From: Lysobacterales bacterium
GTDB taxonomy: Bacteria > Pseudomonadota > Gammaproteobacteria > Xanthomonadales > SZUA-5
DNA length: 54,325 nucleotides
Direction: 5' to 3'
Assembly (NCBI GenBank): GCA_022844135.1
Contig: JALHMG010000038.1
Location: forward strand, 1-54,325
Shown: positions 15,925 to 48,334 of the stretch, piece after piece
How the letters are laid out: each line of letters opens with the position of its first letter
How positions within the stretch are numbered: position 1 is the first letter of the stretch
The notes under the pieces: model-generated
Told to the model about the DNA's origin: nothing
Seen by the model: the letters and a program-made list of their open reading frames with translations, nothing else
The model's database searches: none
Position numbers and translations under genes: made by a program

Positions 15925-17451
15925 TTACTCGAAGCCATTGGCAAAGCGTTCCCAGCAGCGGCTGTTGATCGCGCCGGCGCCCAACGACAGCTGCGGCGTG
16001 GTCGAGATCACGCTGAAGAACCCGGTGGTCAAGTTGTAGCTGCCGTAGCCGATGTAGGCGGCGGATTGCGCCTGCACCCAGCCCATCAGCCGATCGTTGG
16101 CGTTGTCGAAATCGATCGGGCCATGGAACAGGCTGGAGGTGTAGCCGGTGTTGCCGATCAACGTGACCGAGCCGTCGATGCGATTGACGCGATAAAGGCG
16201 GCCGCCGGGTGGGTTGGTTGTGTCGACGCTGAAGAGGCGGCCGGCGCAATCGATGGAACTGGCGGAGGCGCGGAAGGCGTTGCCGTTGTTGACGCCGGCC
16301 TGCAGGTTCGCCTCGGCGGTGGTCAGATCGAACAGGTACAGCCGCGACTGCGTATCGGCGAAACTGCGCGTCATCACATAGGCCTCGCCGCTGCGCGGAT
16401 CGATCATCAGGCCGCGAATGAACTCGTTGCTGGACAGGAGCCCAGTCACGGCGCCAACGGTGGTTCGAGCGCCGGTACTGGTGTCGACACGGACCAAGGT
16501 CGGCGTGCTGCCGACGATGCCGTACAGCGTGTTGCCATTGGGGCTGAAGTCGAGCACGGAGAAATCGTTGCTGGCCAGCGACGTTACCAGCGAGAGGTTC
16601 GCGGCTGAGTGACCGGCGATCGGATGGCGATACAGGCCCAACGCCGGGTTGCTGCCGGTGAAGCCGTGACTGATAAATGCCTGCGCGGGCACCTGATCGT
16701 TGTTGCCGGTGTTGATCTCGATCCGGTCGATCAGCATGTCGACGTTGCTGCCCGCAGTGGAGCCCGACGAGCGCAGCTTGATCGCAAGGCGGTGCACGCC
16801 GGTGCCGAAGTCCTGCAGCTCCGTGGCATTGATTTGCACCGTGCAATACGTGAGCCCGACGCCAGGGTTTGCGGGCGTAAACAGATTCGCGCAACTCGGC
16901 TCGCCGCCGGAGGTGGCAGCGCCGGAGGTGCGCAGGTTTCGCTCGGGGCAGAAGCTGTTTCCGGCCGGGCAGGCGCCGGTGCCTTTGTGTGCCACTGGCA
17001 CGACGCCGCCGCCACCGCTTTTTGCCATGTCTTGAGTATCCGATCCACCACCGCTCTCGCGAACGTCTAAACCCCCAGTGCCGGACGAAATCTTGCGCAG
17101 AATAATGCGCACATTGCCGTTACTGCCGAAGATGATCGGCGGCGTGATGATCCATCGACCTTGGGAATTGCCGGCCGCAAGCCCGCGCGCCGTGCCTTGC
17201 GCGCCGTCGGCGAAAAAGCCAAAACCGCAGGCGTTGATGTCGCCCGGCGTGGCGCAGGTCTGGGTACCGACGCCATCGCCAGCTCGGAAGATCCATCCGG
17301 CGTTGGAGAGCGTTTGGAACTCGATGACGCTGTTGAATTCGGCGATCACCGTTTGATTGAGGCCAATCGTCTGCGCGTGTGCGCTCGTCACAACTAGCGC
17401 GGCCAGTAGTGACAAACAACGGCTCGGCGCAAGGAATCGTTCGGTGGACAT
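15925..17451 (-). CDS. Exported protein with C-terminal FANGFE tail
   Basis: A 508-residue secreted protein with a signal peptide (LSLLAALVVTSAHA). The first half resembles a secreted globular region with several Cys (TCATPGDINACGFGF, CPAGNSFCPE). The second half (about 250-500) has repeated propeller-like or DUF4394-like strands: SVLDFSPNGNTLYGIVGSTPTLVRVDTSTGARTTVG, RLYLFDLTTAEANL, GRLFSVDTTNPPGGRLYRVN. It ends CWERFANGFE, matching a short terminal tail (F-x-N/D-G-F-E) recalled from exported Lysobacterales proteins. The ATG at 17451 overlaps the kinase stop by one nt (TGATG), so it is coupled to that kinase. Function unknown. Confidence 0.7.
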   Translation of the reverse strand: MSTERFLAPSRCLSLLAALVVTSAHAQTIGLNQTVIAEFNSVIEFQTLSNAGWIFRAGDGVGTQTCATPGDINACGFGFFADGAQGTARGLAAGNSQGRWIITPPIIFGSNGNVRIILRKISSGTGGLDVRESGGGSDTQDMAKSGGGGVVPVAHKGTGACPAGNSFCPERNLRTSGAATSGGEPSCANLFTPANPGVGLTYCTVQINATELQDFGTGVHRLAIKLRSSGSTAGSNVDMLIDRIEINTGNNDQVPAQAFISHGFTGSNPALGLYRHPIAGHSAANLSLVTSLASNDFSVLDFSPNGNTLYGIVGSTPTLVRVDTSTGARTTVGAVTGLLSSNEFIRGLMIDPRSGEAYVMTRSFADTQSRLYLFDLTTAEANLQAGVNNGNAFRASASSIDCAGRLFSVDTTNPPGGRLYRVNRIDGSVTLIGNTGYTSSLFHGPIDFDNANDRLMGWVQAQSAAYIGYGSYNLTTGFFSVISTTPQLSLGAGAINSRCWERFANGFE

Positions 17452-20354
17452 CAGCGGCTTCCCCTTGATGGTGTGCTGGCGTTTGCTTTTTTCTGTAATC
17501 GGGCTAATTCATCGAGCAATTCTGGTCGTGCCTCTAGCACCGGCGCATTCCCTTGCGCAAAGTCACGCAGCTTATCCAGCAGCGCCGTGGTCTCAGCGCC
17601 GGTGCCGTTGCCGAGCAGCAGCAGCTCCAGCAGCAGCAGCTGGCTGTCGAACCACTCTTGCTGCGTGCTGGACCCGGGCAGGTCTTCGAGCAACTCATCC
17701 CAGAGTCGAGCAGCTTCTCGCTGGGCCATCGTTGCGCCGTTCAGATCGTTGCGCGCCGCGGACAAATCTTTGAGGCTGGCATATCCCAATGCCAGCAAGC
17801 GCCGCCACGTCGCTTCGGCGGGGAACTCGCGGGCTAGCCCTGTGCGCAACTGCAAGCTTTCCTGATAGGCGGTTTCGGCTTCGTCGAAGCGCTGCTGCAG
17901 CTTGCGCAAATCGCCAAGCTGCTCCAACGACGCGGCCAGATAACGACGAGCGAACGGCCGGTGCGGCGCTTGCTCCAGCAATTCGCGATCGATTTGCAGC
18001 GCCGCCAACGTTGCCGACTCCGACTCGGCAAGCATCGCAGAATCGGCTCGAAGCAACAGCGCATTCGCGAGGCGGCGCTGAGCGAAGGACCACTCGGCGC
18101 GCAGAAATGCGTTGCCGCGGTCTCGCTCTGACAGCTCACCGAGCAAATCGCGCGACGCGCGCAAATCGTCGATCTCATGTTCGCGCAAACCGCGCTGCCG
18201 ATACACTTGAGCGCGGGCGTTGTAGAACGACTTCGCTATGGTTCGAAGCAGGAGCGCATTGGGATTGGCCGCAATCGCCTCGGTTGCTTGTGCGATGCCC
18301 TCCTGTGCGAGCGCGAGCGCGTCGTCGATGCGTTGCAGGCGAAGCAGGTGGTCGAACTCGATATAGGTCAAGCGCAAATCTGTTAGCTGCAGGTCCACGG
18401 AACTCGGGTGCTGCCGCAACGCTTCGGCGGTAGCGGCGCGCGCATGCAAGCGCAGCGCCTCGGCGCTGTCTCGTTCGCCCAGCTTATCCAGTGCTGATGC
18501 GAGCGTGGTGTAGAAGTCCAGCGCCCGCGCCACGCCGTCGGCATCGAGGTCGTCCGCGTTCAGTGCTTGCGCGATGGCGGGCGCCTCACTACCGAGCGCT
18601 CGAACGGCGTCGAGTTCATTGGCATAAAACAAGGCACTTGCAAGATGTTTGCGCGCGCGCCAGGTTCGCGTCGAATCGCTGGCGCTGAGTGTCAGCGCCT
18701 GCCGCGCATCGTCGGCGCACGCTTGCCACTCCAGCTTGTAGTAATTCGAGTCGGAGCGTTCCAACAGAAAATCTATGTGCAGTTGTCTGGGCGCGTTCCA
18801 GCCACGTTGCTCAAGCGCCTCTATCCGCTGCTGCGCTTGCGCGAGCGCAGCATCGGCATCTGCGGACCGAGCGACACTGCGATAAGTGCCGGAGAATCCG
18901 ATCAGCATGCCGATGCGCGCTCGCTCCAGCGCCAAATTGCCAGGATCGGTTCGCTCGATGCTGGCGATCAGCGCTTGCGCTTTTTCGAGCACGCTGGCGA
19001 CGGTCTCCGCGCGCACGCCGCGCGCTTCGCGCAGGTTCTTCGCCAAGTCTTGCGTCAGATCATTCACCGCCTGCACCGACGCACTGAAACTCAACTCCGC
19101 ACGCTCCCGCGCGCGCTCGGCGCTGATCGCAAACAGCACCGAGACGATGCTGGCGACGATGATCCCGAGGCTCAGCGCACTGACCAATCCGACGCTGACC
19201 TTGTTGCGGGTAATGAACTTGCGCGCGCGATACCAGCGCGACGGCGGATGCGCTGCCACCGGACGACCATCCAGCGCGCAGCGCAAATCGTCGGCGAACG
19301 CGGCGGCGGAGCTGTAGCGTTTGTTCGGATCATGCGCCAGCGCTTTCAGCAGCATGTTGTCGAGATCGCCCTTGATGAGTTGCCGCAGCCGCGCGGGCGG
19401 CGCTGGCAGTGCGCCTTCATCGGTGGCGTCATCGTCGATTTGCAGCGAGGGCGTGGTGGTGATCTCACTGTTGAAGCGTTTGCCAGTGAGCAATTCGCCC
19501 AGGATCACGCCCATCGCGTAGACATCGGTGGCGGTGGTGATCGCACCGCCGCTGCGCTGCTCGGGCGCGGCGTACGCTGGCGTGTACATATGCACCTGGG
19601 TTGGGCTCTCGCCATCGCCTTCGAGCAGCTTGGCAATGCCGAAGTCGAGCAATTTGATTTGCCCGGATTCGTTGACCAGCAAGTTACCGGGCTTCAAATC
19701 GCGATGCACAATCAGCGCGCGATGCGCGGCATCGACGGCGTTGGCGACCTCGATCATCAGCCCGATGCGCGAGCGCAGCGACAGCTTTTTGGCGCGCGCA
19801 AAACTGGTGATGCTCTGGCCGTCGACATACTCCAGCACCAGATACGCCGCGCCATCGCGCGTGACGCCGCCGTCGATCCAGCGCGCAATCGACGCGTGCT
19901 CCAGCACCGACAGCACCCGCCGCTCGCGATCGAACTGCTGCCGCGCCTCCGGCGCCTGCATGCCGCGATGCAATACCTTGATCGCCACCGTTTGGCGCAC
20001 GCCCTCGACCAGCCGATGCGCGCGATACACCGAGGCCGATCCGCCATCGCCAATCCACGCATCCAGCGTATATGGCCCGATGCGCTTGCCCTGCAAACCG
20101 GTCGAATGCACATCCAGGCTGGCCGGTTGGATCGGCTGATCCGGATTGACGCTGGTCACCGACAGCCCAGGTTCGGCTTTTGGCAAAGCGCTCTGATCGG
20201 TGGTGGGCTCGGCATCGATCTCGCTTGCCACCAACGCCACCAGCGCCTCGCGCAGCGCTGCGTCCTCGATCGACTCCAGCGCACGAGCGCGGGCGCCTGG
20301 GCTTAGCGCCATCAGCTGTGCAAGTTGCTCTTGTAGGGTGGCATTGTCAATCAA
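17451..20354 (-). CDS. Membrane Ser/Thr protein kinase with TPR region
   Basis: A 967-residue Hanks-type kinase. The N-terminal helical segment is followed by the kinase domain at about 91-375: glycine loop IGDGGSASVYRA, AIKVLHRG (catalytic Lys), HRDLKPGN (an RD kinase), LLDFGIAKLL (DFG), YAAPEQ (APE) and DVYAMGVILGELLTG. One TM helix lies near 385-411 (VSVGLVSALSLGIIVASIVSVLFAIS). The C-terminal region of about 550 residues consists of TPR-like helices. A TTG start at 20354 is chosen because GGAAGG lies 8 nt upstream; the frame is open to an ATG at 20429 without a site. This PknB/TPR architecture usually accompanies an ECF sigma factor, but none is adjacent here. Coupled to the NGFE-tailed gene downstream. 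Confidence 0.9.
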   Translation of the reverse strand: MIDNATLQEQLAQLMALSPGARARALESIEDAALREALVALVASEIDAEPTTDQSALPKAEPGLSVTSVNPDQPIQPASLDVHSTGLQGKRIGPYTLDAWIGDGGSASVYRAHRLVEGVRQTVAIKVLHRGMQAPEARQQFDRERRVLSVLEHASIARWIDGGVTRDGAAYLVLEYVDGQSITSFARAKKLSLRSRIGLMIEVANAVDAAHRALIVHRDLKPGNLLVNESGQIKLLDFGIAKLLEGDGESPTQVHMYTPAYAAPEQRSGGAITTATDVYAMGVILGELLTGKRFNSEITTTPSLQIDDDATDEGALPAPPARLRQLIKGDLDNMLLKALAHDPNKRYSSAAAFADDLRCALDGRPVAAHPPSRWYRARKFITRNKVSVGLVSALSLGIIVASIVSVLFAISAERARERAELSFSASVQAVNDLTQDLAKNLREARGVRAETVASVLEKAQALIASIERTDPGNLALERARIGMLIGFSGTYRSVARSADADAALAQAQQRIEALEQRGWNAPRQLHIDFLLERSDSNYYKLEWQACADDARQALTLSASDSTRTWRARKHLASALFYANELDAVRALGSEAPAIAQALNADDLDADGVARALDFYTTLASALDKLGERDSAEALRLHARAATAEALRQHPSSVDLQLTDLRLTYIEFDHLLRLQRIDDALALAQEGIAQATEAIAANPNALLLRTIAKSFYNARAQVYRQRGLREHEIDDLRASRDLLGELSERDRGNAFLRAEWSFAQRRLANALLLRADSAMLAESESATLAALQIDRELLEQAPHRPFARRYLAASLEQLGDLRKLQQRFDEAETAYQESLQLRTGLAREFPAEATWRRLLALGYASLKDLSAARNDLNGATMAQREAARLWDELLEDLPGSSTQQEWFDSQLLLLELLLLGNGTGAETTALLDKLRDFAQGNAPVLEARPELLDELARLQKKANASTPSRGSR

Positions 20355-20604
20355 ACGTATCGCCTTCCTATTGTCGCGCTCCTGAGACTTCAAACGCTGT
20401 GGACATGACGATGAGTTTTGGAATCGCAACCAACTCTACGCCTCGTACGATGCCCGCTCGGAGCACTATGAATTCCCTTCCCTCGCCCGGCGGGGGCAGG
20501 AACTGAATCAATTGCAACCCAACCGTGTTGTTGCATGAATCAGGCGTTTACGCACATCGGAAACAGCACTGCCAACTCACGGGAAATGCATCCGTTGCAG
20601 GCCA

Positions 20605-35844: not shown

Positions 35845-36642
35845 TCAACGCGCGCGATAGCCGTAGAAGTTTTTCAGCATCGCCTCGGAGCCGCGGTATT
35901 CGGCGGCGGTGGCCTCGACGAATTGCGGCGTACCAAGTTCGTTGAGCACCTCGTACAGCGATTCATCCTCGTGCAGCACCATCATCGCTTCTTTGACCTT
36001 GGCCTTCACGTCCGCCGGCACATCGGGGTGCGCCGAAATTGCAGGTCCAGGGAATTCGCGGGTGGTGATCACCGGAATCAAGTTTGGATACTGGTCCTTC
36101 AGCCACGATGGCACCATCGTCGCATCTGCTTCGCCGGCGAAGACGATCTCGACCGTATCGCGCCAGGAAGTCGCCAGCGAGCGCACATCGGGCTGTTGCA
36201 TCGGGTTCGGAAAGTATTCGAGCAACAGCGCAAAGCCCAGGTTCGGCGCGGGCATGGTGACGAGGCTGCGCGCCACGAAGGCCTGGGTGTTGCCCTCTTC
36301 GATGTTCTCCTGCGTCAGCAGCGAATAGCTGGACGGGATGGAGGACTTCACCAGGGGCTGGTAATTCGAGCGCTGGATACGAAAATCGGTGAAGTGCGCT
36401 TCGTCGAACACGAAGTGCAGGTCGGTGCGCTTTCGTAAGTCGTTCCAGTAGAACGCGTAATTGCGGGCTACCACGAGCTTGAAGGTGTGCCCCGTGCTTT
36501 TGTTCAAGTAGGCGATCAGCGGCTCGTAAACCTCCTTCGCGCGCTCCGGCGTGTAGGTGGGTTCGACCGCGAAATTGTACTCGGCGCCGGGCGTGCTCGC
36601 GCTCAGTGCCAAACCTACCACCACTGCAAACATCATCCGCAT
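35845..36642 (-). CDS. Orphan PhnD-like periplasmic substrate-binding protein
   Basis: A 265-residue exported protein with a signal peptide (MRMMFAVVVGLALSASTPG). It has the features of the phosphate/phosphite/phosphonate (PhnD/PBP2-type) binding family: the opening TYTPERAKEVYEPLIAYLN, a first-lobe segment RTDLHFVFDEAHFTDFRI, TTREFPGPAISAHPDVPADVKAKVKEAMM and a C-terminal tail. The ATG at 36642 follows GGGGGG; the longer frame to 36681 lacks a signal peptide. No permease or ATPase accompanies it. It is divergent from the sigma factor/kinase operon, so a sensory rather than transport role is plausible (inference). Confidence 0.8.
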   Translation of the reverse strand: MRMMFAVVVGLALSASTPGAEYNFAVEPTYTPERAKEVYEPLIAYLNKSTGHTFKLVVARNYAFYWNDLRKRTDLHFVFDEAHFTDFRIQRSNYQPLVKSSIPSSYSLLTQENIEEGNTQAFVARSLVTMPAPNLGFALLLEYFPNPMQQPDVRSLATSWRDTVEIVFAGEADATMVPSWLKDQYPNLIPVITTREFPGPAISAHPDVPADVKAKVKEAMMVLHEDESLYEVLNELGTPQFVEATAAEYRGSEAMLKNFYGYRAR

Positions 36643-36774
36643 GTGCTGACCCCCCTTTTTTTGGGCACGCAAAACGGTCATACCACTTCTCCCGGCGAAA
36701 GGCTATGCGCCAGAGGCTTAAACCTTGCAGAACTTTTGTATAAGGGTCTTGGTTGGCGATGAAGGGCAGGTCCG

Positions 36775-37443
36775 ATTTCTAACTTTCAAACCACGCGCTG
36801 GAGTTTGATCGCCGCCGCAGCCGGCCTGGACGGTACCGCACGGCGTGCGCTCGGCGAGCTGTTTGCGTTGTACCGGCCGCCGGTGCTGGCGTACTTGCGC
36901 CGCCACGCAGAGGGCGATGCCGACGATCTGGCGCAGGGATTTTTTGAGCAGCTGATGCGCCTTAACAGCCATGCCAGCGCCGATCCGGCAAAGGGGAGCT
37001 TTCGCAACTTCCTGATGGTAGCGCTGAAGCGTTTTGTGATGAATCAGCGCGAGGCGGCGAACGCGCTCAAGCGCGGAGGCGGGTGCGCGAATGTCGATAT
37101 CGAATCTGCCGAGCTGACATCGGACCACACGCCCGAACGCGAGTTCGATCGCGAGTTTGCCAAGGTGGTAGTGCGCCAGGCGCTCAAACATCTGGAGTCC
37201 GAGGCAAGCCGAGCGGGCAAACTGGCGCTTTTCCAAACGCTCAGCCCATTCCTGTTTGACGCTGGGGATCCGCAGGACTATGCGCGTGCGGCCGAAGCGC
37301 TCGGTATGCGGCGCAACACCGTCGCCGTCGCCGTGCATCGGTTGCGGCAACGGTTGCAGGAATTGGTGCGCCAGGAGGTGCTGGGCCTGGTCGAGGACGA
37401 GCGCGATGTGGAATCCGAGGTCCGGGCACTTCGGATCGCCTGA
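36775..37443 (+). CDS. ECF-type RNA polymerase sigma factor
   Basis: A sigma-70-family factor of about 222 residues. The region-2-like part reads TTRWSLIAAAAG...ALGELFALYRPPVLAYLRRHAEGDADDLAQGFFEQL and FRNFLMVALKRFVMNQRE. The region-4-like helix-turn-helix is ARAAEALGMRRNTVAVAVHRLRQRLQELV. The TTRWSL motif is conserved at the N-terminus of this sigma subgroup and in the paralogue downstream, but no ATG, GTG or TTG gives it in frame. The frame is open from a TGA at about 36760, leaving ATT (36775) with AAGGGCAGG upstream as a candidate; TTG 36805 loses the motif and has no spaced site. A start by IF3-sensitive ATT, or a frameshift from ATG 36759, is possible. Followed 65 nt later by the sigma-like paralogue and kinase. 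Confidence 0.8.
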   Translation: MSNFQTTRWSLIAAAAGLDGTARRALGELFALYRPPVLAYLRRHAEGDADDLAQGFFEQLMRLNSHASADPAKGSFRNFLMVALKRFVMNQREAANALKRGGGCANVDIESAELTSDHTPEREFDREFAKVVVRQALKHLESEASRAGKLALFQTLSPFLFDAGDPQDYARAAEALGMRRNTVAVAVHRLRQRLQELVRQEVLGLVEDERDVESEVRALRIA

Positions 37444-37508
37444 CAGAAAGCTTGTCATCGCAGCCGGTATATCCGTAATCGCGAGATCGAGACCTGCAGG
37501 AAGCAAGC

Positions 37509-38237
37509 ATGCCAACCAACACCACTTTACCCTCGCACGATCGATTTGCGGCAACGCGCTGGTCGCTGGTGGCGACGGCCAGCAGTGCGGACGATGCGTC
37601 GGCACGGCGTGCGCTGATTGAGCTGTGCCTGCGCTATTGGTACCCGGTGTATGCCTACGTGCGCGGTTGCGGCCACGACGCCGCCTTGGCCGGGGAAATC
37701 GTTCGGGCGTTTTTTGAGCAGCTGGTCAGCACCCGGATGGCCGGGGGGAACCGGGGTTACGGTCGGTTTCGCCAGCATCTGTTGCAAATGCTGCATCAGT
37801 TCCTGGCCAGCGATTGGCGTTCGTCGGCCGATGGCGAGCCGGTGGCCGAGTTTGAGCGGATGGGCGGCGAATTCGAAGGCCGCTATCAGACCGAGGTTCT
37901 GGGTGGTCTCGGCCCGGAACAGGCCTATCAGCGTTCCTACGCGTTGCAGATACTGAACACGGCGCTCGACCGTTTGCGCATCGAAGCGCAACAGGCGGGA
38001 CGGCTGGACATGTTCGACGCGTTGATGCCATTCCTGTCGGAGGAACCAATTCCCGGGCAACTTGCGCACTTGGCACAGAGGCTCGACCTGGCGCCGCTGG
38101 CACTGGTGATATCGCTCAAACGACTGCGCCAGCGTTTTCGCGAATTGGTGCAACTGGAGCTGGCGCAAACGGTCACCAACGCTGCCGACCTCGAACAAGA
38201 GCGCGCCGTGCTTGCGCAAGTGCTGGCGCTGAAATGA
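37509..38237 (+). CDS. Degenerate sigma-factor-like protein
   Basis: A 242-residue paralogue of the preceding sigma factor (ATRWSLVATASS..., ALIELCLRYWYPVYAYVRG, FFEQLVSTRM, SLKRLRQRFRELV). The region-2 acidic pair is lost (DADDLAQGFFEQL in the first protein; DAALAGEIVRAFFEQL here). The helix-turn-helix has become AQRLDLAPLALVISLKRLRQR, lacking the Gly/Arg-x-Thr-Val recognition turn. It may no longer bind promoters and could be an anti-sigma or partner subunit for the first factor. The ATG at 37509 follows AGGAAG. Its stop overlaps the kinase ATG by 4 nt. Confidence 0.75.
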   Translation: MPTNTTLPSHDRFAATRWSLVATASSADDASARRALIELCLRYWYPVYAYVRGCGHDAALAGEIVRAFFEQLVSTRMAGGNRGYGRFRQHLLQMLHQFLASDWRSSADGEPVAEFERMGGEFEGRYQTEVLGGLGPEQAYQRSYALQILNTALDRLRIEAQQAGRLDMFDALMPFLSEEPIPGQLAHLAQRLDLAPLALVISLKRLRQRFRELVQLELAQTVTNAADLEQERAVLAQVLALK

Positions 38238-41200
38238 GCACGGCAACCAAGGTCATGTTGCCCGACGCGCTCTCGCGATTGGCCGGTCTTGCCTTCGGCG
38301 GCGGCCCGAGCGTCGAGACCCATACGCCCAAGCATCTGGCGTTCCTGCCGATGGAAGCCCTGGAGCTCGACCTCAGCGATCCAGAACAGCGCGACTTCGG
38401 CGACTATGAGCTCGTCGAGCTCTTGGGGCAGGGCGGCATGGGCGTGGTCTATCGTGCGCGCCAGCGCTCTCTGGATCGAGAGGTGGCGGTCAAACTGTTG
38501 TCGGCCGGTCCTTGGGCGTCTGCGGATTTCATCGCCAGATTCCAACGCGAGGCGCAATCGGCCGCCCGGTTGACCCACCCGAACATCGTTTCGATCTACG
38601 AGATCGGACAGCATGCCGAGCTCAACTTTTTCTCGATGCAGCTGGTCAAGGGTAAGAGCCTCGCAGCGTCCCTCGATCAAGAAGGGCGATTGGCGCCGAC
38701 GGAAGCCGCGCGTTTGCTGCGCACCATCAGCGAAGCGCTCGACTACGCGCACCGCCTGGGCATCCTGCATCTCGATTTGAAGCCCGCCAATGTGTTGATC
38801 GACGAGCGCGGCGAACCGATGGTCGCCGACTTTGGACTCGCCAGGCGACTCGACGAGGCGCTCGCCGGCGACACCGATGAGGTCTCGGGGACGCCGTGCT
38901 ACATGGCGCCCGAACAAGCCTTGGCAAAGGGCCAGCGGATCGGCGTGGCGACCGATGTCTACGGCTTGGGTGCCATTCTCTATGAGCTGATCACCGGGCG
39001 GCCGCCGTACTTGGGATCGAGTCCCCGGCACACGCTGGAAATGGTCGTGTCCGGTGTGCTCGATGCTCCGCATGTGCTCAATTCCCGAGTGCCGCCCGAT
39101 CTTTCTGCGATCGCGATGAAATGCCTGCACAAGGACGCCGCGCAGCGCTATCTCACGGCCCGCGGACTGGCAGAAGATCTGGGTCGCTTTCTTGAAGGGC
39201 GCCAGGTCAGCGTGCGCGCGCAAAGCACGCTGGAGCGCACCTCGCGTTGGGCGCGTCGCGAGCCCAGGCTCGCCGGCGCGGTCCTCATCGCCGCAGCCTC
39301 GTTACTCGCAGGTCTTGGCGCCAGCACGTGGCAGTGGCGACGCGCGGAAGCTGAGAACATTCGGGCCGAACAAGCGGCATCAGCGGCACGCCAGGCGCTC
39401 TGGAAAGTTCGGGACCGCGATGTGGAGGCACTCGTCGCAGCGCAACGGCCGCTGGATGCTTTGGCACCGCTGCTCGAAAATCTCGCCGAGCAAGAGGCTG
39501 TCGCCGAACCGCTTGCACGGACCAATCGCTATGCCTTCGCTGGATTGGCGGCCGCAGCCCCGGCACTGATCGACGTGCTGCCCACCGGCGCCAATACCGG
39601 TCAAGTGGTGATCGACCCTGAGGGTCGATGGGTGGTGACGCTCGCCGACGATCACGTCAACGCCCAGCGCTTCGATCTTGCCACCGGGCAACGTGTGTGG
39701 GCAGGCCGGGTGGATCCGATTTATGCGAGCACCACGTTAGCCGTCTCGGCGAATGGTCGCTTCCTGCTCGGCGAGCACACCAATTGGGCGATGCACAATC
39801 GCCGCGGCCAGAATGGTTCGCTGGTCGATCTTGGGACAGGCGCAAAGATACTGCCGCCGAGCGCGCGCTTCCCGAAGCTGGTGCGACTGCTGTTCAGCGC
39901 CGACGGCGAGTTCGCCATGATTGGCGAAACCGACGACGCAGCCGGTGGCTCGGTGGTCGCGCGACTGCATCGCGTCAGCGATTGGCAGGCGCTCGGCAAG
40001 CCAGGAATTTTCAACGGCAACCTGCAGCTTGCCAGGGGCGGCCAAGGCTTGTTCGTCTTCGAGCGGCTCGCGACTCACGGGAAAACGCCGCAGCCGATGG
40101 AAATGCTGGATGCGGTTACGCTGGAACGTCGATGGGTGGTGCAACCGCCGGAGCACATCCGCGCCTGGCGTCTGTCGCCAACGGAGACGACCATGGCGAT
40201 CGGTTTGCTGAATGGGCGGATCGGTCTGATCGACGTCGCCGCTGGTGACGTGCGCTGGATCAGCTCGCCCTATCAATCCAGCGCGGTCAACGAGTTCGAA
40301 TTCAGTCGCGATGGTCGTTGGCTCGCAGCGGTTCACGAGAGTCTGGGCGTCCAGGTGATCGACGTCGGCACCGGCACGATCGTCATGCCGAGCCTGCCGG
40401 TAGCGCCCAATCGCGAGCTGCAGGTGCTGGACATCGATCCTCACACGCGCCGCATTGGCATCCAGGGTCGCGAGCAATGCCTGATGTTCCGTATCGACGA
40501 TGGCGCCGCTACTTTGCTGCACAGCGCGCCGGGCGTTGGCGCCAACTCGCGCTGCGGTATGAACGCCCGGCTCGGTCTGCTGGTGGTGGCCCGCGACAGC
40601 GAGGCGGCCGTCTGGCGGCTGCGTACCAATCTCCCGCTGCAGGCGCAGGCGCCGGTACTGGAGATGCTGCAATCGGCGCCAAAGGTGTACGCCGCGCGCA
40701 CACTGCACGTCGACGCTGAGCAAGCACAACTGCAGAGCCTCGATGGCGAACCGTCGGGTCCGTTGATGCGATTCCCATTCGCCATCGGATTCGCGCTGGA
40801 TGTCGGTGAACGCGTCGTCGTCAGTTCAGCCGCAACGCTGCATGTGCGGCACAGCGCCGACGGCGAGCAGGCGTATGCCCCCATCGAATTGCCGGCCAAT
40901 CCGGTCGCGCTGCTGGCGCAAGGCGACACCATTCTTGCCGCATGGGCAGTGCATGACCGTGGTGTACCGGCGGTGCGCATCGCCACCTTCGATCTGGCAA
41001 GCGGGCAACCCCTGGCCGAGCGCACCTTGCCGTCCTTTCGGCCATCGTTGGCGCTGTCCGCCGACCAACGCCATGTTCTGGCCTGGCACGACGATGCCAT
41101 GACCGGTGCCAGCGAGCTGCTGGTAATGAAACGCGAAAACCTGGTCGACGTGGTGGGATCGTTGCCGTTTTGGTCCCAGCCCGAAGCGAAGTTGATTCGC

Positions 41201-42448
41201 TACGGTGCCCTCAGCGACGGCATCCTGTGGCGCATGCGTGGCGTCGGCGGCGATGCCGGTTACCATCTGGATGCGATCGAACTGGCGGCCGGCCGCTTGC
41301 TGCAGAGCTGGCCGCTGGATGTGCCGTTCATGGCGGCGACGACGAACGGCAAAAAGCTGCTGGCGATCAATCAGAGCAACGGGCTGTTGATTTTCGGCAT
41401 CGGCGCATCGCCAACGGTCATCAGACACGGATTGCCGTCTCGCGACGGACACCATGGTTTTGCGGTCAGCGCCGATGGCCTGCGTGCGGTCGTGTTTCAA
41501 GGCAATGCAGCCCAATGGCTGGACCTGGCCAGTGGTCGCTGGCTGGCGCCGCCGCTCAGCGTCGCGCAAACGCGCATGTTCACGCGCGTCGCGCTCGGCG
41601 AGGATTTTGCGGTGCTCAGCGACGATCGTCGGCGCCAATGGCTGTATCCATTGCATCGAAGCGACGAACCGATCGACCAACTTCGCGAACGTACGCAGGC
41701 GCTGTTGCCGGGCGACGCGCCACGCCTCCCGACCGACGCCGAGCGCGTTCGCCAGCAGTTGCGTGCGGCCGATCCAGGCCCGCCCAGAGAAGCGGTATCG
41801 ATGGCACCGGCCAAACACGTCGACATTGAACCGCCCTTTGTCGACCTGCGGCCCAAGTGCAATCTGCCGCTGGATCGCACCGCTGCACAATTGCATATGG
41901 CTATACGCCTCGACCGCGCAATCGTGGTCGGACGGCATCGGCTACTCGGGCAAGACTACGAAGTCCGCTGCGGCGTATTCCCCAAATTCGTTCCGGATCG
42001 CGATGCCAATGTTGCCGATGGATCGCGGATCGATGGTATCGCGGTGCATGGACAAACAGCGCGCGCGATCGACTTTCTGATGGTCGCCCCCAGCATCATT
42101 GTCGATCGCATCGATCCGCAGTTCGCCGTGCTTGAGATCGCTTATCGAAACGGCGAGCGTGCGCGCAAGACGTTGATGCTCGGACCGGATTTGCGGCCGT
42201 GGTTGCAGCCCTACTACGGAAATGCCCCGAACACGCAACGCATGGCGTTCATTGGCCTGTCGGCGCAGTATTTCGAAAGCGTGCACCCGCGCGCACCGAA
42301 GCCTGCCGCATATCACATTCGCTTCGATAATCCGCATCCGGACTGGCCTATCGATGGTCTGGCCATCGAATCCACACGCCGGCCCTACAGCGCCCCATTG
42401 CTGCTGGCCGCGACCTTAGTCCAGAGAACCGAAGAGTACACGCCATGA
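38234..42448 (+). CDS. Large membrane Ser/Thr kinase with propeller-like C-terminus
   Basis: A 1404-residue Hanks-type kinase. The kinase domain is about 58-325: glycine loop LLGQGGMGVVYRA, VAVKLLSAG, HLDLKPAN (the HRD Arg is Leu, so non-RD), ADFGLARRL, GTPCYMAPEQA and DVYGLGAILYELITG. One TM helix lies at about 345-366. A C-terminal region of about 1000 residues has repeated WD40/PQQ-like strands (VVIDPEGRWVVTLADDHV, FSRDGRWLAAVHES, LALSADQRHVLAWHDD), probably periplasmic. ATGA overlaps join it to the sigma-like gene upstream and the TonB receptor downstream. Probably phosphorylates the sigma-like proteins or their partners (inference). Confidence 0.9.
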   Translation: MSTATKVMLPDALSRLAGLAFGGGPSVETHTPKHLAFLPMEALELDLSDPEQRDFGDYELVELLGQGGMGVVYRARQRSLDREVAVKLLSAGPWASADFIARFQREAQSAARLTHPNIVSIYEIGQHAELNFFSMQLVKGKSLAASLDQEGRLAPTEAARLLRTISEALDYAHRLGILHLDLKPANVLIDERGEPMVADFGLARRLDEALAGDTDEVSGTPCYMAPEQALAKGQRIGVATDVYGLGAILYELITGRPPYLGSSPRHTLEMVVSGVLDAPHVLNSRVPPDLSAIAMKCLHKDAAQRYLTARGLAEDLGRFLEGRQVSVRAQSTLERTSRWARREPRLAGAVLIAAASLLAGLGASTWQWRRAEAENIRAEQAASAARQALWKVRDRDVEALVAAQRPLDALAPLLENLAEQEAVAEPLARTNRYAFAGLAAAAPALIDVLPTGANTGQVVIDPEGRWVVTLADDHVNAQRFDLATGQRVWAGRVDPIYASTTLAVSANGRFLLGEHTNWAMHNRRGQNGSLVDLGTGAKILPPSARFPKLVRLLFSADGEFAMIGETDDAAGGSVVARLHRVSDWQALGKPGIFNGNLQLARGGQGLFVFERLATHGKTPQPMEMLDAVTLERRWVVQPPEHIRAWRLSPTETTMAIGLLNGRIGLIDVAAGDVRWISSPYQSSAVNEFEFSRDGRWLAAVHESLGVQVIDVGTGTIVMPSLPVAPNRELQVLDIDPHTRRIGIQGREQCLMFRIDDGAATLLHSAPGVGANSRCGMNARLGLLVVARDSEAAVWRLRTNLPLQAQAPVLEMLQSAPKVYAARTLHVDAEQAQLQSLDGEPSGPLMRFPFAIGFALDVGERVVVSSAATLHVRHSADGEQAYAPIELPANPVALLAQGDTILAAWAVHDRGVPAVRIATFDLASGQPLAERTLPSFRPSLALSADQRHVLAWHDDAMTGASELLVMKRENLVDVVGSLPFWSQPEAKLIRYGALSDGILWRMRGVGGDAGYHLDAIELAAGRLLQSWPLDVPFMAATTNGKKLLAINQSNGLLIFGIGASPTVIRHGLPSRDGHHGFAVSADGLRAVVFQGNAAQWLDLASGRWLAPPLSVAQTRMFTRVALGEDFAVLSDDRRRQWLYPLHRSDEPIDQLRERTQALLPGDAPRLPTDAERVRQQLRAADPGPPREAVSMAPAKHVDIEPPFVDLRPKCNLPLDRTAAQLHMAIRLDRAIVVGRHRLLGQDYEVRCGVFPKFVPDRDANVADGSRIDGIAVHGQTARAIDFLMVAPSIIVDRIDPQFAVLEIAYRNGERARKTLMLGPDLRPWLQPYYGNAPNTQRMAFIGLSAQYFESVHPRAPKPAAYHIRFDNPHPDWPIDGLAIESTRRPYSAPLLLAATLVQRTEEYTP

Positions 42449-45042
42449 CGCCTGCATTTGCCTTCGTTGCCATGTTGTGCGGGTCAACCGGGAACCTGCA
42501 GGACAATGCGCCGGACGCGACGGACATCGACGCCATCGTTGTGACTGGCAGTCGCATTCGGCGCGTGGATACCGAGGGCCCGCTGCCGATCAGCGTCATC
42601 GAGCGCGAGGAGTTGAAGACCAGCGGCGCGCTCGGCGTCGCCGATCTGTTTCGCGATGTGCCGAACAACAGCTTCGGTGGGTTCGCGGATGTGCCGAACT
42701 CCACCTTGCCTACGGCTGCTGTGCCCGGCTTGCGCGGCTTGAATGGACGTTACACATTGACCTTGTTCGACGGCCAACGGCTGCCGACGCTGGCGGATGG
42801 GTTTTACGGTGGCGCCAGCAGCCTGACCGGCATCCCGCAAATCCTGATCGATCGTGTGGAGATCCTGCGCGATGGCGCCTCGGCAATTTACGGCAGCGAC
42901 GCCATCGGCGGCGTGGTCAATCTGCTGACCCGAGACGATCTGGATGCGCCGCTATTCGACGTGCAATGGGAGATGCCGAGTGGCCGCGGCGGCGATGCGC
43001 ATCGAGGCAGCTTCGCCACAGGCGGCGGCGAGGATACGCGATGGGTGTTCGCCGCCGAGACCTTGCGCCGCGATCCGCTGCGCGGCGCCGACCGGCCGTA
43101 CCTGCTCGCGGCCCCGGTGATTTCCACGTTCGGCGATCCTGGCAGCTTTCAACCGCTCAATCCCACAACGCTGCGTCCGGCCGGCCCGTTCCGGGCCGAC
43201 CCGCGCTGTCCGGCTGAATACGACACCGACCCTGCGTTCCCCAATTCGCGGCGCATCCAAAACGGCCCCAATACCTTCTGTGTGTATCGCTTTCGCGCCG
43301 AAAACGACGAGCGCGCGGGGCTCGAAAGCCTTAGCGTCTACGCCGACGTGCGCCATCGTTTCGCCAGCGGCATGGCCTTGCATTCGCGCGTGCTGGCCAT
43401 TCGCAACGACAGCAGCTCGCAGCTTGCGCCAGCGCCTGTCACGGGCGTCGTTATCCCGGCCAATGCGCCAACCAATCCGACCCGAAATCCCGGGCCCGCC
43501 GTGCCCATTCGTTTGAACTACCGGCTCGGCGCCCTTGGGCCGCGCATCAACGACAGCCGCGAGGACAACGTGCATGGGCTGGTGAAACTGTCGGGCGAGG
43601 CCGACAGCGTCGACGCCTGGACGCTGGCGTTCATCGCCAACCGCTATTCGCAGTCGGCGCAGACAGCGCAAGGCGGCGCGCTGCGCTCGGTGCTCATCGA
43701 TGCCATCCAAAGCGGACGTTTCGACCCGTTCAGCGCTGCACCCGGCGATACCCGTGGGTTGGATGGCGTCGCCTATCGCGCAATCGACGTCAGCGATACC
43801 AGATCGGTGGGACTTGAGGGCACTGCCAGCTTGAGCCGCGACTGGGCATTCGGCAGCGCTTCGCTTGCGCTCGGCTTCGAGGCGCGTCGCGACGAGTTCT
43901 CGATTGAGCAGGATCCGGCGCGCGTCGTTGGTGCGCTGCTGGGCGCTGGCATCGGCGTGAACCAGGACGGCTCGCGAAGCTACGGCGCGTTGTACGTCGA
44001 GGCCTTGCAGCCTATCGGCGACGAGGTCGAGTTGAACGCTGCCGCGCGCTACGACCATTACCAGGATGCCGGTGGCGCCTTGAGTCCGAAGTTGTCGCTG
44101 CTCTGGCGTCCAACGCCCGATCTGCTGCTGCGCGGTTCGTTGAGTCGCGGCTTCCAGGCACCGGATCTGGCCTCAGCCTACGGCGGCGCCATTGGCGGGC
44201 TTGCTTTCGTCATCGATCGGCCCAATTGCCTGGCTGCAGGCGGCACCGGTCCGGAGTGCGTGATCCAGGGGTTCGACAGCCAGATCGTGCCTAATCCATC
44301 CCTGCAACCCGAGCGCGCCTGGCAGGGCGGGCTGGGCGTGGTCTGGCAAGCGGGGCACTTCGATGTTGCGCTGGACGCCTGGCGTCTGGGCATCGAGGAT
44401 CAAGTCGGCATCCTGCGTGCGCAGACCGTCGTCGACAACCAGACCGCTTGTGCAGCAGCCGGACGCCCCTGCGATCGCCTCACCGAAGGCGAAGTGTTGC
44501 GGACCGCACAAGGAACAATCGTCTCGATCGTCCAGCCGCGAATCAATATCGCCCGACAGGATGCCAGCGGTATCGACCTCGATATCGGTGCGCGCCTGCC
44601 CACCGCCCACGGCGATTGGCGCTGGCGCTTACGCGCCAGCCATCTGGTCGATCTGGAACAACGTCGCGCTGCGGGTTCTGCAACGGAGAACCAGCTGCAG
44701 TATTTCGGTTTCCCGGATTTGCGGGCCAGCAGCACCTTGGGTTGGTCGTCGGGCGCGCATGCGCTCAGTATCTCGGCGCGCTTTACCGATGGTTACCGCG
44801 GTTGCGCTTTGCCGACCGACGCCACCGGTGCCCCGGATGCCGCGTGCCGGGTGTTCATTCGCTCGCACGTTGAGTGGGACGGCCGTTGGCATTGGCAAGC
44901 GCCATGGAACGCCGAGGTCGGCATCGGCGTGCGCAACTGGCGCAACCGGCCAGTGCCAGTGTCGCCGACCGGCGAGTTCGCTTACGGGCTCTACGATCCG
45001 ATCGGGCGAGTCTGGTTCGCAAACTATGCGCAGCAGTTTTGA
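42445..45042 (+). CDS. TonB-dependent receptor coupled to the kinase gene
   Basis: An 865-residue receptor. It has a short N-terminal hydrophobic stretch (MTPAFAFVAMLCGSTG, a weak signal peptide), a TonB-box-like IDAIVVTGSRIRR, a plug (LPISVIEREELKTSG ... LDRVEILRDGASAIYGSDAIGGVVNLLTR-type motif at about 135-160) and a long barrel ending WFANYAQQF. The oar/GSRIRR-type opening is common among Lysobacterales and Caulobacterales receptors for peptides, sugars or unknown ligands. The ATG at 42445 overlaps the kinase stop by 4 nt, so it belongs to the sigma-sigma-like-kinase-receptor unit. Substrate unknown. Confidence 0.92.
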   Translation: MTPAFAFVAMLCGSTGNLQDNAPDATDIDAIVVTGSRIRRVDTEGPLPISVIEREELKTSGALGVADLFRDVPNNSFGGFADVPNSTLPTAAVPGLRGLNGRYTLTLFDGQRLPTLADGFYGGASSLTGIPQILIDRVEILRDGASAIYGSDAIGGVVNLLTRDDLDAPLFDVQWEMPSGRGGDAHRGSFATGGGEDTRWVFAAETLRRDPLRGADRPYLLAAPVISTFGDPGSFQPLNPTTLRPAGPFRADPRCPAEYDTDPAFPNSRRIQNGPNTFCVYRFRAENDERAGLESLSVYADVRHRFASGMALHSRVLAIRNDSSSQLAPAPVTGVVIPANAPTNPTRNPGPAVPIRLNYRLGALGPRINDSREDNVHGLVKLSGEADSVDAWTLAFIANRYSQSAQTAQGGALRSVLIDAIQSGRFDPFSAAPGDTRGLDGVAYRAIDVSDTRSVGLEGTASLSRDWAFGSASLALGFEARRDEFSIEQDPARVVGALLGAGIGVNQDGSRSYGALYVEALQPIGDEVELNAAARYDHYQDAGGALSPKLSLLWRPTPDLLLRGSLSRGFQAPDLASAYGGAIGGLAFVIDRPNCLAAGGTGPECVIQGFDSQIVPNPSLQPERAWQGGLGVVWQAGHFDVALDAWRLGIEDQVGILRAQTVVDNQTACAAAGRPCDRLTEGEVLRTAQGTIVSIVQPRINIARQDASGIDLDIGARLPTAHGDWRWRLRASHLVDLEQRRAAGSATENQLQYFGFPDLRASSTLGWSSGAHALSISARFTDGYRGCALPTDATGAPDAACRVFIRSHVEWDGRWHWQAPWNAEVGIGVRNWRNRPVPVSPTGEFAYGLYDPIGRVWFANYAQQF

Positions 45043-45520
45043 GCGCATTCGCGCATATGTGGCTACACCAGCGTGAAGAATGGCGATGCCGACGTCGCCG
45101 AAGTGAATGCCGACGCGGCGACGTAGTTGCCTGCCTTGCGAGACTGAGGGCTGGCGCGGTCCCGGCAGGCTGTTTTCCACCGCGCTCTGCGGTCACCGCC
45201 GCATTGGCCGCACCGCGCGGGGCGACATCTTGGGGCCGCAAAAGACAATGCCCAAGGACGCATGAAAACCCAAACCTGCATCGACATGGATCGACTTTCC
45301 GCCCTATTGGCAGATCGCGCGAGGCACTTGTGCCATAGTGCTGGGGGACTTTAACGGACAAATCGACAACAGCTCGCCTTGCCTGACCGTGCTGCACTCG
45401 CTCCCCATTCGACCCCTGACCATGGTTATGGGTCCCGCGGGAGAGGGGTTGGGCATGCAGACGCGATCCCTCTGTCGCTTCGTCCGTTAGCGTCGACAAG
45501 ACGTCCATCGTGAGACTGCC
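45043..45520. other. Intergenic stretch with no recognised gene
   Basis: 478 nt between the TonB receptor and the diguanylate cyclase. No frame on either strand shows family features or a good ribosome site; those present are shadows of the neighbours. No clear terminator with a T-tract was found after the receptor. The promoter of the diguanylate cyclase should lie in the 3' part. Confidence 0.5.
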
Positions 45521-48334
45521 ATGGCGCGATTCGTAGCTGTGTGGTTGCTCCTGCTGTCCGGCTACGTCGGCGCCGGGCAGCTTGGACAGCCGATTACGCA
45601 ACGCTTCACGCCGCTCGAAACCGGCGCCCAACCGTATAGCTTTGCGGTGCTGGCCAAGCCCAATGGCGAGGTATTTGTGGCCAATCTGGAGGGCGTGCTG
45701 CGCTACTTCGGTCAGCGCTGGAAGCTGATCGACATCGGCGGCGCAGGGCGTTCGTTGGCTGCAGGCCCTGACGGTGAGGTCTATGTTGGCGGCTTCCAGT
45801 CTTTTGGCGTACTCAAGCGCAGACCCGATGGTAGTTACAGCTTCGATCGCCTGGATCGGCTGTTCATGCCCGACGACGCCGGTGCGCCATTGGGCGAGGT
45901 CTGGGATACCGTTGTTGTCGATGGCGGTGTTTACTTCGCCACGCGCACCAAGGTCTTTTACTACGGCTTCGGCGGCGAACGCGCCAGCATCGATATGCCA
46001 GGCGATTTGCTTTCGATGCACGCGGATGCTGACGGCCCCCTGGTCGTGTTGCGCGATCGGCGCCTGCTTCGATTGAGTGGCTCGAACTGGTCGGAATGGC
46101 TGAAACCGGCGGCGCGTGTGTATGGCATCGTGCCTCGAGAAGACGGGCACTTGTTGATCGGCGAAGATGGCGAATTGATCTTGGCTCGGGCTGGCGAGTT
46201 GCAAGCAATGGTCTCGACACTCACGCCGGAACTCGTCAAGGCGTCGGCATACTGCGCCGCCACATTGCCGAACGGCGATGTGGCGATCGGCAGCCTCGAT
46301 GGCCGAGTGTTTCGGCTCGGCACAGACGGGCGTTACAGAGTACTGGCGAGCAGCGATGCGCCGGTGTTGGGGATGGCGCTGGACGCCGAAAATGGTCTGT
46401 GGCTCGCCACCGAATCCGGGCCGATGCGGGTCTCGTTGGATTTGGCTTGGACCGAAATCGATGCTGGTAACGGCCTCCGAGGTCCGCCGGCGCACGCCGC
46501 GATCTGGAACGAAGCGCTGTATGTCGCTACGAGTGTCGGCCTGTACGTTTCGCGGGGCGACGCTGGGCAAACGGCGGCCTTCGAGTTGCTGGATTTTGCC
46601 GATACCGAAGTCAATTACCTGCTCGCCACCAAACACGGTCTGTTGATCGGCGCACGCACCGGGCTGCACGTGCTGGACGCATCCGGGCTAAGGCCGTTGA
46701 TTGTGGGCGCGACGGTCTGGCGCATGTTTCCTTCGACGCGAATTCCTGGGCGGATTTACGTGATGGAGGATGCCGGCTTGCTGGTGCTCGATGAGGTCGG
46801 CGGGGCGCTCCGAGAATCGCAACGCTTCCTCGATCCGAGTTACAAATTCGATGAGTTGGCGGAAACCGAAGCTTATGTCTACGTCGATCGGGTCCTGGCC
46901 GCGCCGATGCGTTTGGCGGTCGACGCGAACGGTCGCCTCGGGCCGCCGGTAGCGCTTGCGCCTGAGCCAGCCGAGGACATGCACGGCACGATCGTCTCCG
47001 ACGATGACGGCGTGTACATCAGCACCGCTGGCGCACTGCTCAGGATTGGTGCGAATGGGCTATCCAGGGTCGAGCGACATCCGTGGATCGAAAACGGACT
47101 GGCGCCGTCCGACGAGCTACGGACACGGCGCTGCGCCAATGGGGATCGGTTGGCGATGACGCTGCGCAAATTGCTGTGGCGACCGGCACTGAGTCCCGAC
47201 TGGCGCCCGCTGTATCCGATGAATGGCCGTACGCAAGGCATCAACGAGGTGGCCTGTGGCGAGCGACAGTTGTTCATCGTGACATGGTCGGGCCTGGCGC
47301 GCTTCGACCCTGGGCAGGTCAACGCGATGGCGCCGCTCGCGCCGCCGCAGATCGAGCGTGTGGAGTTGGTCGCGCCACACGGCAGGGTGGTGCAATTGGC
47401 GCTTGCCGAGCCCATCGTCGTGCCCCCCGCGCATCGGTTGCGACTGCATTTTGCATCGCCTTATCTGGGCGGCGCTGTGCGCTATCAGTCGCGACTATCG
47501 GACATCGAACGCGCCTGGAGCGACGCCGGTGGTCAAGGCGTGCGCGATCTGGCGTTGGCGAGCGGCAGCCATGCGTTGCAGACGCGCGCCATCGACGCGG
47601 CCGGGCGGATCAGCGCGGTCGCGCCGATTCGGTTCGCCGTCGCGCGCGATTGGCGAGCGTTGGCGTTCAGCACGCTGATCGCGCTCGTCGGCATCGCGGT
47701 CGTGTCGACGCTGATTTACGTCTGGCGCGCTGGAGCGCTGCGGCGGCGGAACTTGGAGCTGGAGGCGATGGTCGAGGAGCGTACACGCTCTCTGGCGCAG
47801 CGCACCGCGGATTTGGAGGTCGCCAATCAGCGACTGATTGCGCTCGCCGATATGGATGGGCTGACTGGCGTTGCCAACCGGCGCAAGCTCGAGGCCGAGC
47901 TTGATCGCAGCTGGCGGGAGGCGATCGAGAGCAGGGCGCCGCTATCGTTGTTGATGATCGATGTCGATCACTTTAAACGCTACAACGACACTCATGGCCA
48001 CCTGCTCGGCGACGAGCGCCTGCAGGCAATTGCCGAGCGCCTCAAGGGTTGGGTCGCGCCGGGCGATACGTTGGCACGATACGGTGGCGAAGAGTTCGTG
48101 CTGGTGATGCCGGGCGCCACGTTGGCGATCGCCACGGAGCGCGCTCAGGCCATCCGTCGGGACACCCGCGCAGTGGATCGGCTGGGCGACAGCAGTACTG
48201 TGTCGATTGGCGTTGCCGAACGCACGGCCAGCCATGCCGAGACGCCGGAGCAGCTGTTCGAGTTCGCGGACCTGGCCTTGTATCGGGCCAAGAACGCCGG
48301 GCGCGATCGCATTGAGGTTTATGATCCTTCGTAG
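45521..48334 (+). CDS. Two-component-regulator-propeller diguanylate cyclase (GGDEF)
   Basis: A 937-residue membrane protein. It has a signal peptide or first TM (MARFVAVWLLLLSGYVGA), then a periplasmic beta-propeller region of about 600 residues (NGEVFVANLEGVLRYFG, GPDGEVYVGGFQSFGVLK, AENGLWLATESGPMRVS) and a Y_Y_Y-like domain (LRLHFASPYLGGAVRYQSRLSDIERAWSD). TM lies at about 708-730 and a coiled coil near 740-775. The C-terminal GGDEF domain opens DGLTGVANRRKLEAEL and has the signature RYGGEEFVLVMPG, so an active c-di-GMP synthase is predicted. The product-inhibition RxxD site expected five residues before GGEEF is absent (WVAPGDTLARYGGEEF). Ligand unknown. Confidence 0.92.
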   Translation: MARFVAVWLLLLSGYVGAGQLGQPITQRFTPLETGAQPYSFAVLAKPNGEVFVANLEGVLRYFGQRWKLIDIGGAGRSLAAGPDGEVYVGGFQSFGVLKRRPDGSYSFDRLDRLFMPDDAGAPLGEVWDTVVVDGGVYFATRTKVFYYGFGGERASIDMPGDLLSMHADADGPLVVLRDRRLLRLSGSNWSEWLKPAARVYGIVPREDGHLLIGEDGELILARAGELQAMVSTLTPELVKASAYCAATLPNGDVAIGSLDGRVFRLGTDGRYRVLASSDAPVLGMALDAENGLWLATESGPMRVSLDLAWTEIDAGNGLRGPPAHAAIWNEALYVATSVGLYVSRGDAGQTAAFELLDFADTEVNYLLATKHGLLIGARTGLHVLDASGLRPLIVGATVWRMFPSTRIPGRIYVMEDAGLLVLDEVGGALRESQRFLDPSYKFDELAETEAYVYVDRVLAAPMRLAVDANGRLGPPVALAPEPAEDMHGTIVSDDDGVYISTAGALLRIGANGLSRVERHPWIENGLAPSDELRTRRCANGDRLAMTLRKLLWRPALSPDWRPLYPMNGRTQGINEVACGERQLFIVTWSGLARFDPGQVNAMAPLAPPQIERVELVAPHGRVVQLALAEPIVVPPAHRLRLHFASPYLGGAVRYQSRLSDIERAWSDAGGQGVRDLALASGSHALQTRAIDAAGRISAVAPIRFAVARDWRALAFSTLIALVGIAVVSTLIYVWRAGALRRRNLELEAMVEERTRSLAQRTADLEVANQRLIALADMDGLTGVANRRKLEAELDRSWREAIESRAPLSLLMIDVDHFKRYNDTHGHLLGDERLQAIAERLKGWVAPGDTLARYGGEEFVLVMPGATLAIATERAQAIRRDTRAVDRLGDSSTVSIGVAERTASHAETPEQLFEFADLALYRAKNAGRDRIEVYDPS

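Follow-up and report, generated by a model that had tools for sequence, protein, structure and literature searches.

Control of extracytoplasmic function (ECF) sigma factors by a membrane kinase has been worked out for few systems, belonging to one group and with one sigma factor per kinase, in the portions of the literature available here. In EcfP/PknT of Vibrio parahaemolyticus and EcfK/PknS of Xanthomonas citri, both of group ECF43, an ECF sigma factor is encoded beside a membrane Hanks-type kinase with no anti-sigma factor. EcfP and EcfK are both reportedly phosphorylated by this adjacent kinase, a precedent for membrane kinases that activate the ECF sigma encoded next to them (PMC8999054, PMC13147305). 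The principle that a kinase can replace an anti-sigma factor is known. Our subject is a locus of this kind with a second sigma-like gene, found in a stretch of 54,325 nucleotides from a Lysobacterales bacterium (the window; positions 1 to 54,325 of contig JALHMG010000038.1, assembly GCA_022844135.1, forward strand). Four genes follow one another on its + strand. The first two encode an ECF-type sigma factor (sigA) and its degenerate paralogue (sigB), the third a membrane Ser/Thr kinase of 1404 residues and the fourth a TonB-dependent receptor; a PhnD-like gene is divergent from them. The gene order recurs in many other genomes and is therefore above chance. Control of the sigma pair by the kinase is the best-supported account in our analysis, and we would place its probability just short of even.

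Like the ECF43 systems, the locus has a kinase adjacent to its sigma genes, with sigB standing between sigA and the kinase. The ECF43 accounts deal with one sigma factor in the available text of PMC8999054 and PMC13147305, as against two here. In addition, EcfP lacks the acidic sigma-2.2 motif, and a Thr in that region supplies the missing charge (available part of PMC8999054), whereas sigA keeps the motif and so departs from ECF43. The corresponding segment in the window, AEGDADDLAQG, has the acidic DADD and neither Ser nor Thr, and an EcfP-type Thr switch, which we considered for sigA, for this reason does not fit. The ectodomain of PknS is TPR-rich (available part of PMC13147305) in contrast to the WD40-type propellers of the kinase studied here, and the parts of those reports at hand describe no outer-membrane gene alongside EcfP/PknT or EcfK/PknS, whereas one is present in our locus. 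A sigma gene next to a Ser/Thr kinase gene is also tabulated for ECF59, ECF61, ECF62, ECF217 and ECF283 in the portion of PMC8999054 available, which states that a DAED-like motif is retained in the groups outside ECF43; sigA retains one too. This is at odds with PMC8103513, whose accessible part has kinase-regulated ECFs, including ECF59, replacing that motif. Within the open-licence literature, the paired-sigma kinase module looks like a new variant.

Gene order and its recurrence

The product of sigA (36775..37443, +) scored 47.8 bits against the NCBIfam sigma70-ECF model TIGR02937 (cut-off 42.9), which identifies it as an ECF sigma factor. After 65 bases comes sigB (37509..38237, +), whose 242-residue product is 36% identical to that of sigA (E 3e-26). 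The kinase gene (38234..42448, +) begins within an ATGA overlap with the sigB stop (38234..38237, +) and matches PF00069 with 173 bits over residues 58-309, and a second ATGA (42445..42448, +) joins it to the receptor gene (42445..45042, +; PF00593, 4.8e-36; PF07715, 1.6e-18). These matches bear out an earlier note on this DNA, which had named the same four co-directional genes with ATGA overlaps at 38234 and 42445 and had put the kinase at the anti-sigma position; a kinase gene, and no anti-sigma gene, indeed lies next to the sigma genes. The sigA, sigB, kinase and outer-membrane genes form one co-directional, probably co-translated unit. Scanning 36600-45600 gave no sigma-70 promoter site (1.3 expected) and seven terminator-like sites (6.8 expected), nothing above chance.

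A contig scan with sigA alone returned no relative; relatives were found with a sigB profile run over one genome per species. The best 80 of 168 relative-encoding stretches were kept, giving 79 loci, of which 36 are from Pseudomonadota (L045-L080) and 43 from Verrucomicrobiota (26), Planctomycetota (13) and Acidobacteriota (4). The 36 sigB loci represent 32 assemblies by accession prefix, three of which give more than one locus; 20 are from Lysobacterales and 16 have no order-level placement. Together they hold 38 copies of sigB. Directly upstream lies sigA in all 35 copies with room for it (L045, L058 and L068 are cut off), and directly downstream lies a kinase in 35 of 36 (the exception being L055; L074 and the second copy in L073 are cut off). 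The arrangement is thus conserved in other genomes as well, a point for which the earlier note had proposed a neighbourhood search for sigma-kinase-TonB triples. Four bases are shared by the sigB stop and the kinase start, in the kinase frame, in 21 of 35 related loci; the kinase start codon of the remaining 14 is found from 50 bases before to 33 bases after that stop. We tentatively regard sigA, sigB, the kinase and a probable outer-membrane protein as a signalling cassette of Lysobacterales, a view that falls slightly below an even chance.

Of whole genomes, 36 of 398 from the order match the sigB profile (single sigmas and the window's own genome counted), and so do three of 398 drawn from the phylum, all from the same order and one being the own genome, in tallies that mostly scored seven candidates or fewer per genome and may miss copies. 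Several loci carry additional genes. A second sigma pair follows the first cassette on the same strand in L053 and L073, a second kinase does so in L053 and L059, and two tandem sigA-like genes precede sigB in L066 and L069.

The kinase and the outer-membrane slot

The kinase comprises a leader (residues ~1-57; 38234..38404, +), a kinase domain (58-309), a hydrophobic segment (~346-364) and an ectodomain extending to residue 1404 (39347..42445, +). Hanks-type kinases are marked by a glycine loop, VAxK, a catalytic Asp, DFG and APE, and most kinases have HRD at the catalytic loop. All or almost all of the 35 kinases that were aligned carry the Hanks-type motifs, and every one has HLD at the HRD position. 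This alignment contains the window and 34 of the 37 kinases in the 36 loci, with three cut ones (L050, L066 and the second of L053) outside it by score limit. The leader pattern LA.LAFG ... L.LDLSDP.QR.FGDYEL occurs in 34 of the aligned kinases, and L045 has a close variant. Seven kinases viewed from single-sigma Lysobacterales loci have shorter leaders and share mainly the second half of the motif. The full motif is found in none of ten non-proteobacterial kinases shown, although a LAALAL stretch occurs in L102 and FGDYEL in several of them. We consider the leader a candidate docking segment.

By the positive-inside rule, the positively charged flank of a membrane segment lies on its inner side. 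Arginines precede the hydrophobic stretch 346-364, which suggests that the C-terminal half of the kinase is outside. An AlphaFold2 model of the ectodomain (predicted local distance difference test, pLDDT, 79.6; predicted TM-score, pTM, 0.75) has a helical stalk, WD40-type propeller blades and a C-terminal beta domain. The top 50 Foldseek rows (E 1e-21 to 2e-17) are mostly WD40 propeller proteins, with TM-scores to the query of 0.32 at most, and WD40-class Pfam models were matched in 22 of 22 kinase ectodomain members; a comparison with solved-structure sequences yielded one match, at E 0.89. In agreement with the earlier note, the model and the WD40 matches support a far half of propeller type that is probably periplasmic.

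Twenty-one loci are readable past the kinase, although the last gene is itself cut by the contig in L045, L047, L052 and L078; the contigs of the remaining 14 sigB-linked kinases stop within the kinase gene or less than 300 bases after it. A TonB receptor follows in 11 of the readable loci and another barrel-like protein family in 10. In 8 of the 11 the receptor start and the kinase stop share four bases, in the receptor frame. In the other ten (L047, L049, L052, L057, L067, L070, L072, L075, L077 and L078), a small ACGE protein with a leader-like start adjoins a member of a single family, in either order. This family has 11 members, two of them from L057, all of which match one another at E 1e-3. 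Among ten members scanned, Pfam barrel models reached the cut-off in one, were weak in three and absent in six, and we infer that the family consists of outer-membrane barrels. Five of the small ACGE proteins were scanned and gave no Pfam family over the cut-off. When the TonB and barrel-like kinds are placed on the sigB tree, at least four changes are needed over 22 labelled rows, and the partner in this slot has therefore changed more than once. In L047 a second kinase lies between the first kinase and the last-slot gene, and a TonB match likewise follows the kinase of the single-sigma locus L040.

FecI/FecR/FecA systems resemble the cassette in having co-directional ECF sigma and TonB receptor genes. 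In the cassette, however, the kinase replaces FecR, and the receptor is exchanged in the 10 of 21 loci noted above. No STN domain was found in 12 of 12 TonB receptors, namely that of the window and 11 relatives, of which the one in L045 is cut by the contig and the one in L069 is split over two frames. FecIRA-like signalling through the receptor, with which the earlier note had compared the locus, was rejected on these grounds, the genes after sigA being sigB, kinase and receptor with no FecR-like gene.

sigA, sigB and their divergence

The product of sigA is 44-48% identical to nine relatives. Where the relatives start, the window has neither ATG nor GTG in the region 36759-36805; ATT occurs there instead, following AAGGGCAGG, at 36775. 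This apparent sigA start is overlapped by a short frame of seven codons, ATG...TAA (36759-36782). From the relatives' start to a TTRWS-like motif there are five codons in 27 of 34, four in three and three in four, where the nearest upstream ATG, GTG or TTG was taken, so that a start is found by construction and the distance is the informative quantity; two further rows have no readable motif. The ATT may be an unusual start codon or reflect an error in the sequence. A by-eye look for an ECF promoter upstream of sigA, by which the gene might be autoregulated, gave GCATAAT-like or TGTGGCAGACT-like elements in several relatives, and nothing conclusive.

For sigB, no Pfam family matched at E 0.01, and the score against TIGR02937 was 14.9 bits, short of the cut-off of 42.9, with other NCBIfam sigma models far below theirs. 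A loss special to sigB lies in sigma-2.2, whose Asp and Gln are both kept in 37 of 38 sigA rows (the sole miss, L078, is cut short of the region), 11 of 11 Lysobacterales single sigmas and 43 of 43 distant sigmas, and in 4 of 40 sigB rows. The [KR]R pair that follows (sigA 35/38, singles 4/11, distant sigmas 43/43, sigB 0/40) is a weaker mark of sigB because it is also missing in seven of the 11 singles. The KRGG segment is wholly lost in sigB. Where a column is conserved in sigA as well as in the distant sigmas, sigB has kept it in 6 of 16 cases within sigma-2.2 to 2.4, compared with 22 of 29 outside that segment (Fisher p 0.023). The degeneracy claimed by the earlier note thus holds for the sequence. 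An AlphaFold2 model of sigB (pLDDT 88.7, pTM 0.84) can nevertheless be matched, at modest Z (5-7), to sigma2 and sigma4 of ECF sigmas, and its best structural rows are ECF sigmas (AlgU, SigE and others; Z 6.9 and below, in the range of chance arrangements). Foldseek gave no match for the sigB model at E 0.001 or better, and the sigB profile gave weak matches to RAP1 and others among solved-structure sequences, which we take as chance.

The pattern of loss bears on how the two proteins might work together. One possibility is a bipartite sigma factor: the two proteins would bind RNA polymerase jointly, with sigma2 supplied by sigA and sigma4 supplied or strengthened by sigB. This would suit the sigma4 arginines that stay in sigB (columns 232, 234 and 236, 95-100%), its mostly lost sigma-2.2 Asp and Gln and the joint travel of the two genes, and there is a precedent in SigO-RsoA of Bacillus subtilis, likewise two sigma-like proteins encoded together. 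In SigO-RsoA, however, sigma2 and sigma4 are split between the proteins (PMC8103513, in the part available), whereas sigA and sigB each align over both; sigA, moreover, keeps a sigma4 of its own (R189, R191 and R193 at 100%) and has nothing missing. We judge a bipartite sigma unlikely. A similarly low probability attaches to sigB being a PhyR-type sigma mimic that binds and titrates an anti-sigma factor and is released or armed by the kinase. The sigma-like domain of PhyR is built like an ECF sigma, and its contacts to promoter and core are degenerate (PMC8103513, same portion), which resembles sigB, and PhyR (3t0y) is among the structural rows of sigB, albeit at Z 4.7, below the ordinary ECF rows. 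PhyR, in contrast to sigB, has a receiver domain, and the unit in the window contains no anti-sigma gene and none that is NepR-like.

All 40 sigB rows form one clade (SH-aLRT, the Shimodaira-Hasegawa-like approximate likelihood ratio test, 100; stem 0.58) spread over at least two named families, and none of the 43 non-proteobacterial rows falls in it. The tree was made by a quick method with SH-aLRT as its only support and drawn from the midpoint; L065_A (128 residues, cut) was dropped. Matches had been classed as A or B by the better score against the window pair, and the classes later agreed with the tree. A kinase match is present in 40 of the 43 non-proteobacterial loci, and 41 have one sigma; L094 and L123 have two, each beside its own kinase, and one sigma per locus entered the tree, leaving out the second of each of these. 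It may be that sigB arose from sigA within Lysobacterales, or that it arrived separately.

Distances among sigA and sigB proteins are correlated (Mantel r 0.805, 36 pairs, 0 of 2000 permutations as high), which we read as the two travelling together and not as a sign of binding. Divergence is faster in sigB (mean p-distance 0.55 versus 0.47 in sigA). This rate and the loss of conserved sigma-2.2 to 2.4 residues could be expected of a decaying duplicate that has no role of its own and is kept by operon structure. We consider this improbable: sigB has 18 invariant columns among 34 sequences, columns that reach 80% conservation in sigB without doing so in sigA (E38, R42, G55 and H56 among them), and a single clade that spans families. 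The stop-free sigB rows do not count as a test of decay, as they were taken from open frames.

A possible kinase-controlled sigma pair

We postulate that the far half of the kinase, if periplasmic, would sense the state of the envelope or of a substrate, and that the kinase would change the state of the sigma pair by phosphorylation. In this scheme sigA would recruit RNA polymerase, and sigB would be a regulatory sigma-like partner (antagonist, adaptor or kinase substrate) and not a second promoter-reading sigma; of these two roles, a regulator of sigA is the one we favour. The outer-membrane protein, made from the same message, would be the component whose deployment follows the signal. If sigA is itself phosphorylated, the [S/T]-P-E of the sigma2-sigma4 linker would be the better candidate site, as in EcfK, which is also phosphorylated in this linker (available part of PMC13147305). 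Ser or Thr stands before the conserved Pro of the linker in about three quarters of sigA rows (T119 in the window). A more elaborate version, which we regard as doubtful and of which the literature consulted gives no description, is a three-part phospho-switch. Here the propeller-ectodomain kinase would act via sigB, which holds or hands over sigA; sigB, derived from a sigma factor and without core-polymerase contacts, would stand in place of an anti-sigma factor; and exchangeable outer-membrane proteins would put the same switch to use for different substrates.

Several observations weigh against kinase control of a sigma pair. First, a genome of the same genus (G001) has no match to the sigB profile, and the module is therefore patchy. 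Second, L055 and L030 carry the sigma pair without a kinase, and L027 and L032 have sigA relatives without sigB and with no kinase match within 17 kb. Third, in seven Lysobacterales loci a single sigma accompanies a kinase and sigB is absent, which means that not every such pair needs sigB. Fourth, the loss across the whole of sigma-2.2 to 2.4 is not special to sigB, because the 11 single sigmas used as a control also keep few columns there (8 of 16, and 17 of 29 elsewhere); it is loss of the Asp-Gln pair that is special. Lastly, with sigma4 kept, sigB may have a promoter role. As to L055, frr- and cdsA-like frames (named by eye) follow its sigma pair, and either loss of the kinase or an assembly join is possible.

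The loci with sigma pairs or sigA relatives and no kinase would also fit a kinase that is co-transcribed but hits other targets, the sigma pair meanwhile driving other genes, including the outer-membrane gene. Such targets may be many, as a protein-kinase model has 60 matches in the window's genome at E 1e-10, a number in which some frames are counted as two pieces. Against this stand the 35 of 36 adjacency, the coupled starts and the conserved leader of cassette kinases, although single-sigma kinases have a shorter version of it. We hold it to be quite unlikely, and return to kinase control of the sigma pair. Judged from gene arrangement, the constant order suggests that the cell's outside is sensed in a manner not yet characterised. 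A second, partly degenerate sigma between a true sigma and a kinase offers a testable case for a sigma factor becoming the regulator of another, and the link to outer-membrane proteins provides a handle on what propeller kinases sense. Tests should be possible, since the loci include those of two named strains that are not labelled as metagenome bins (Pseudoxanthomonas daejeonensis DSM 17801 and Rhodanobacter sp. B05).

Among the neighbouring genes, the PhnD-like periplasmic binding protein (35845..36681, -; PF12974, 70 bits) lies outside the conserved module. The earlier note was right that it is present and divergent, but had included it in the interval 36643-45042, of which it lies almost wholly outside. 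As a partner of the system, the role the note had proposed, it was rejected: no similar protein occurs in the 79 loci (BLASTP, E 1e-5), although more distant PhnD-like proteins could escape this search, or in a set of 18 loci (E 1e-4), and in its own genome its sole match is itself. Among the 79 are 17 sigB loci whose contig reaches 8 kb or more beyond sigA on the upstream side. A downstream GGDEF gene (45521-48334, +), whose product also has a weak Reg_prop match, was considered as a member of the unit and set aside; it is 478 bases from the receptor gene, and GGDEF matches occur in 4 of 36 sigB loci, all upstream of sigA. Elsewhere in the window, a second Ser/Thr kinase gene (17451-20429, within 15925-20429, -) has one base in common with the following gene, which encodes a secreted-looking protein.

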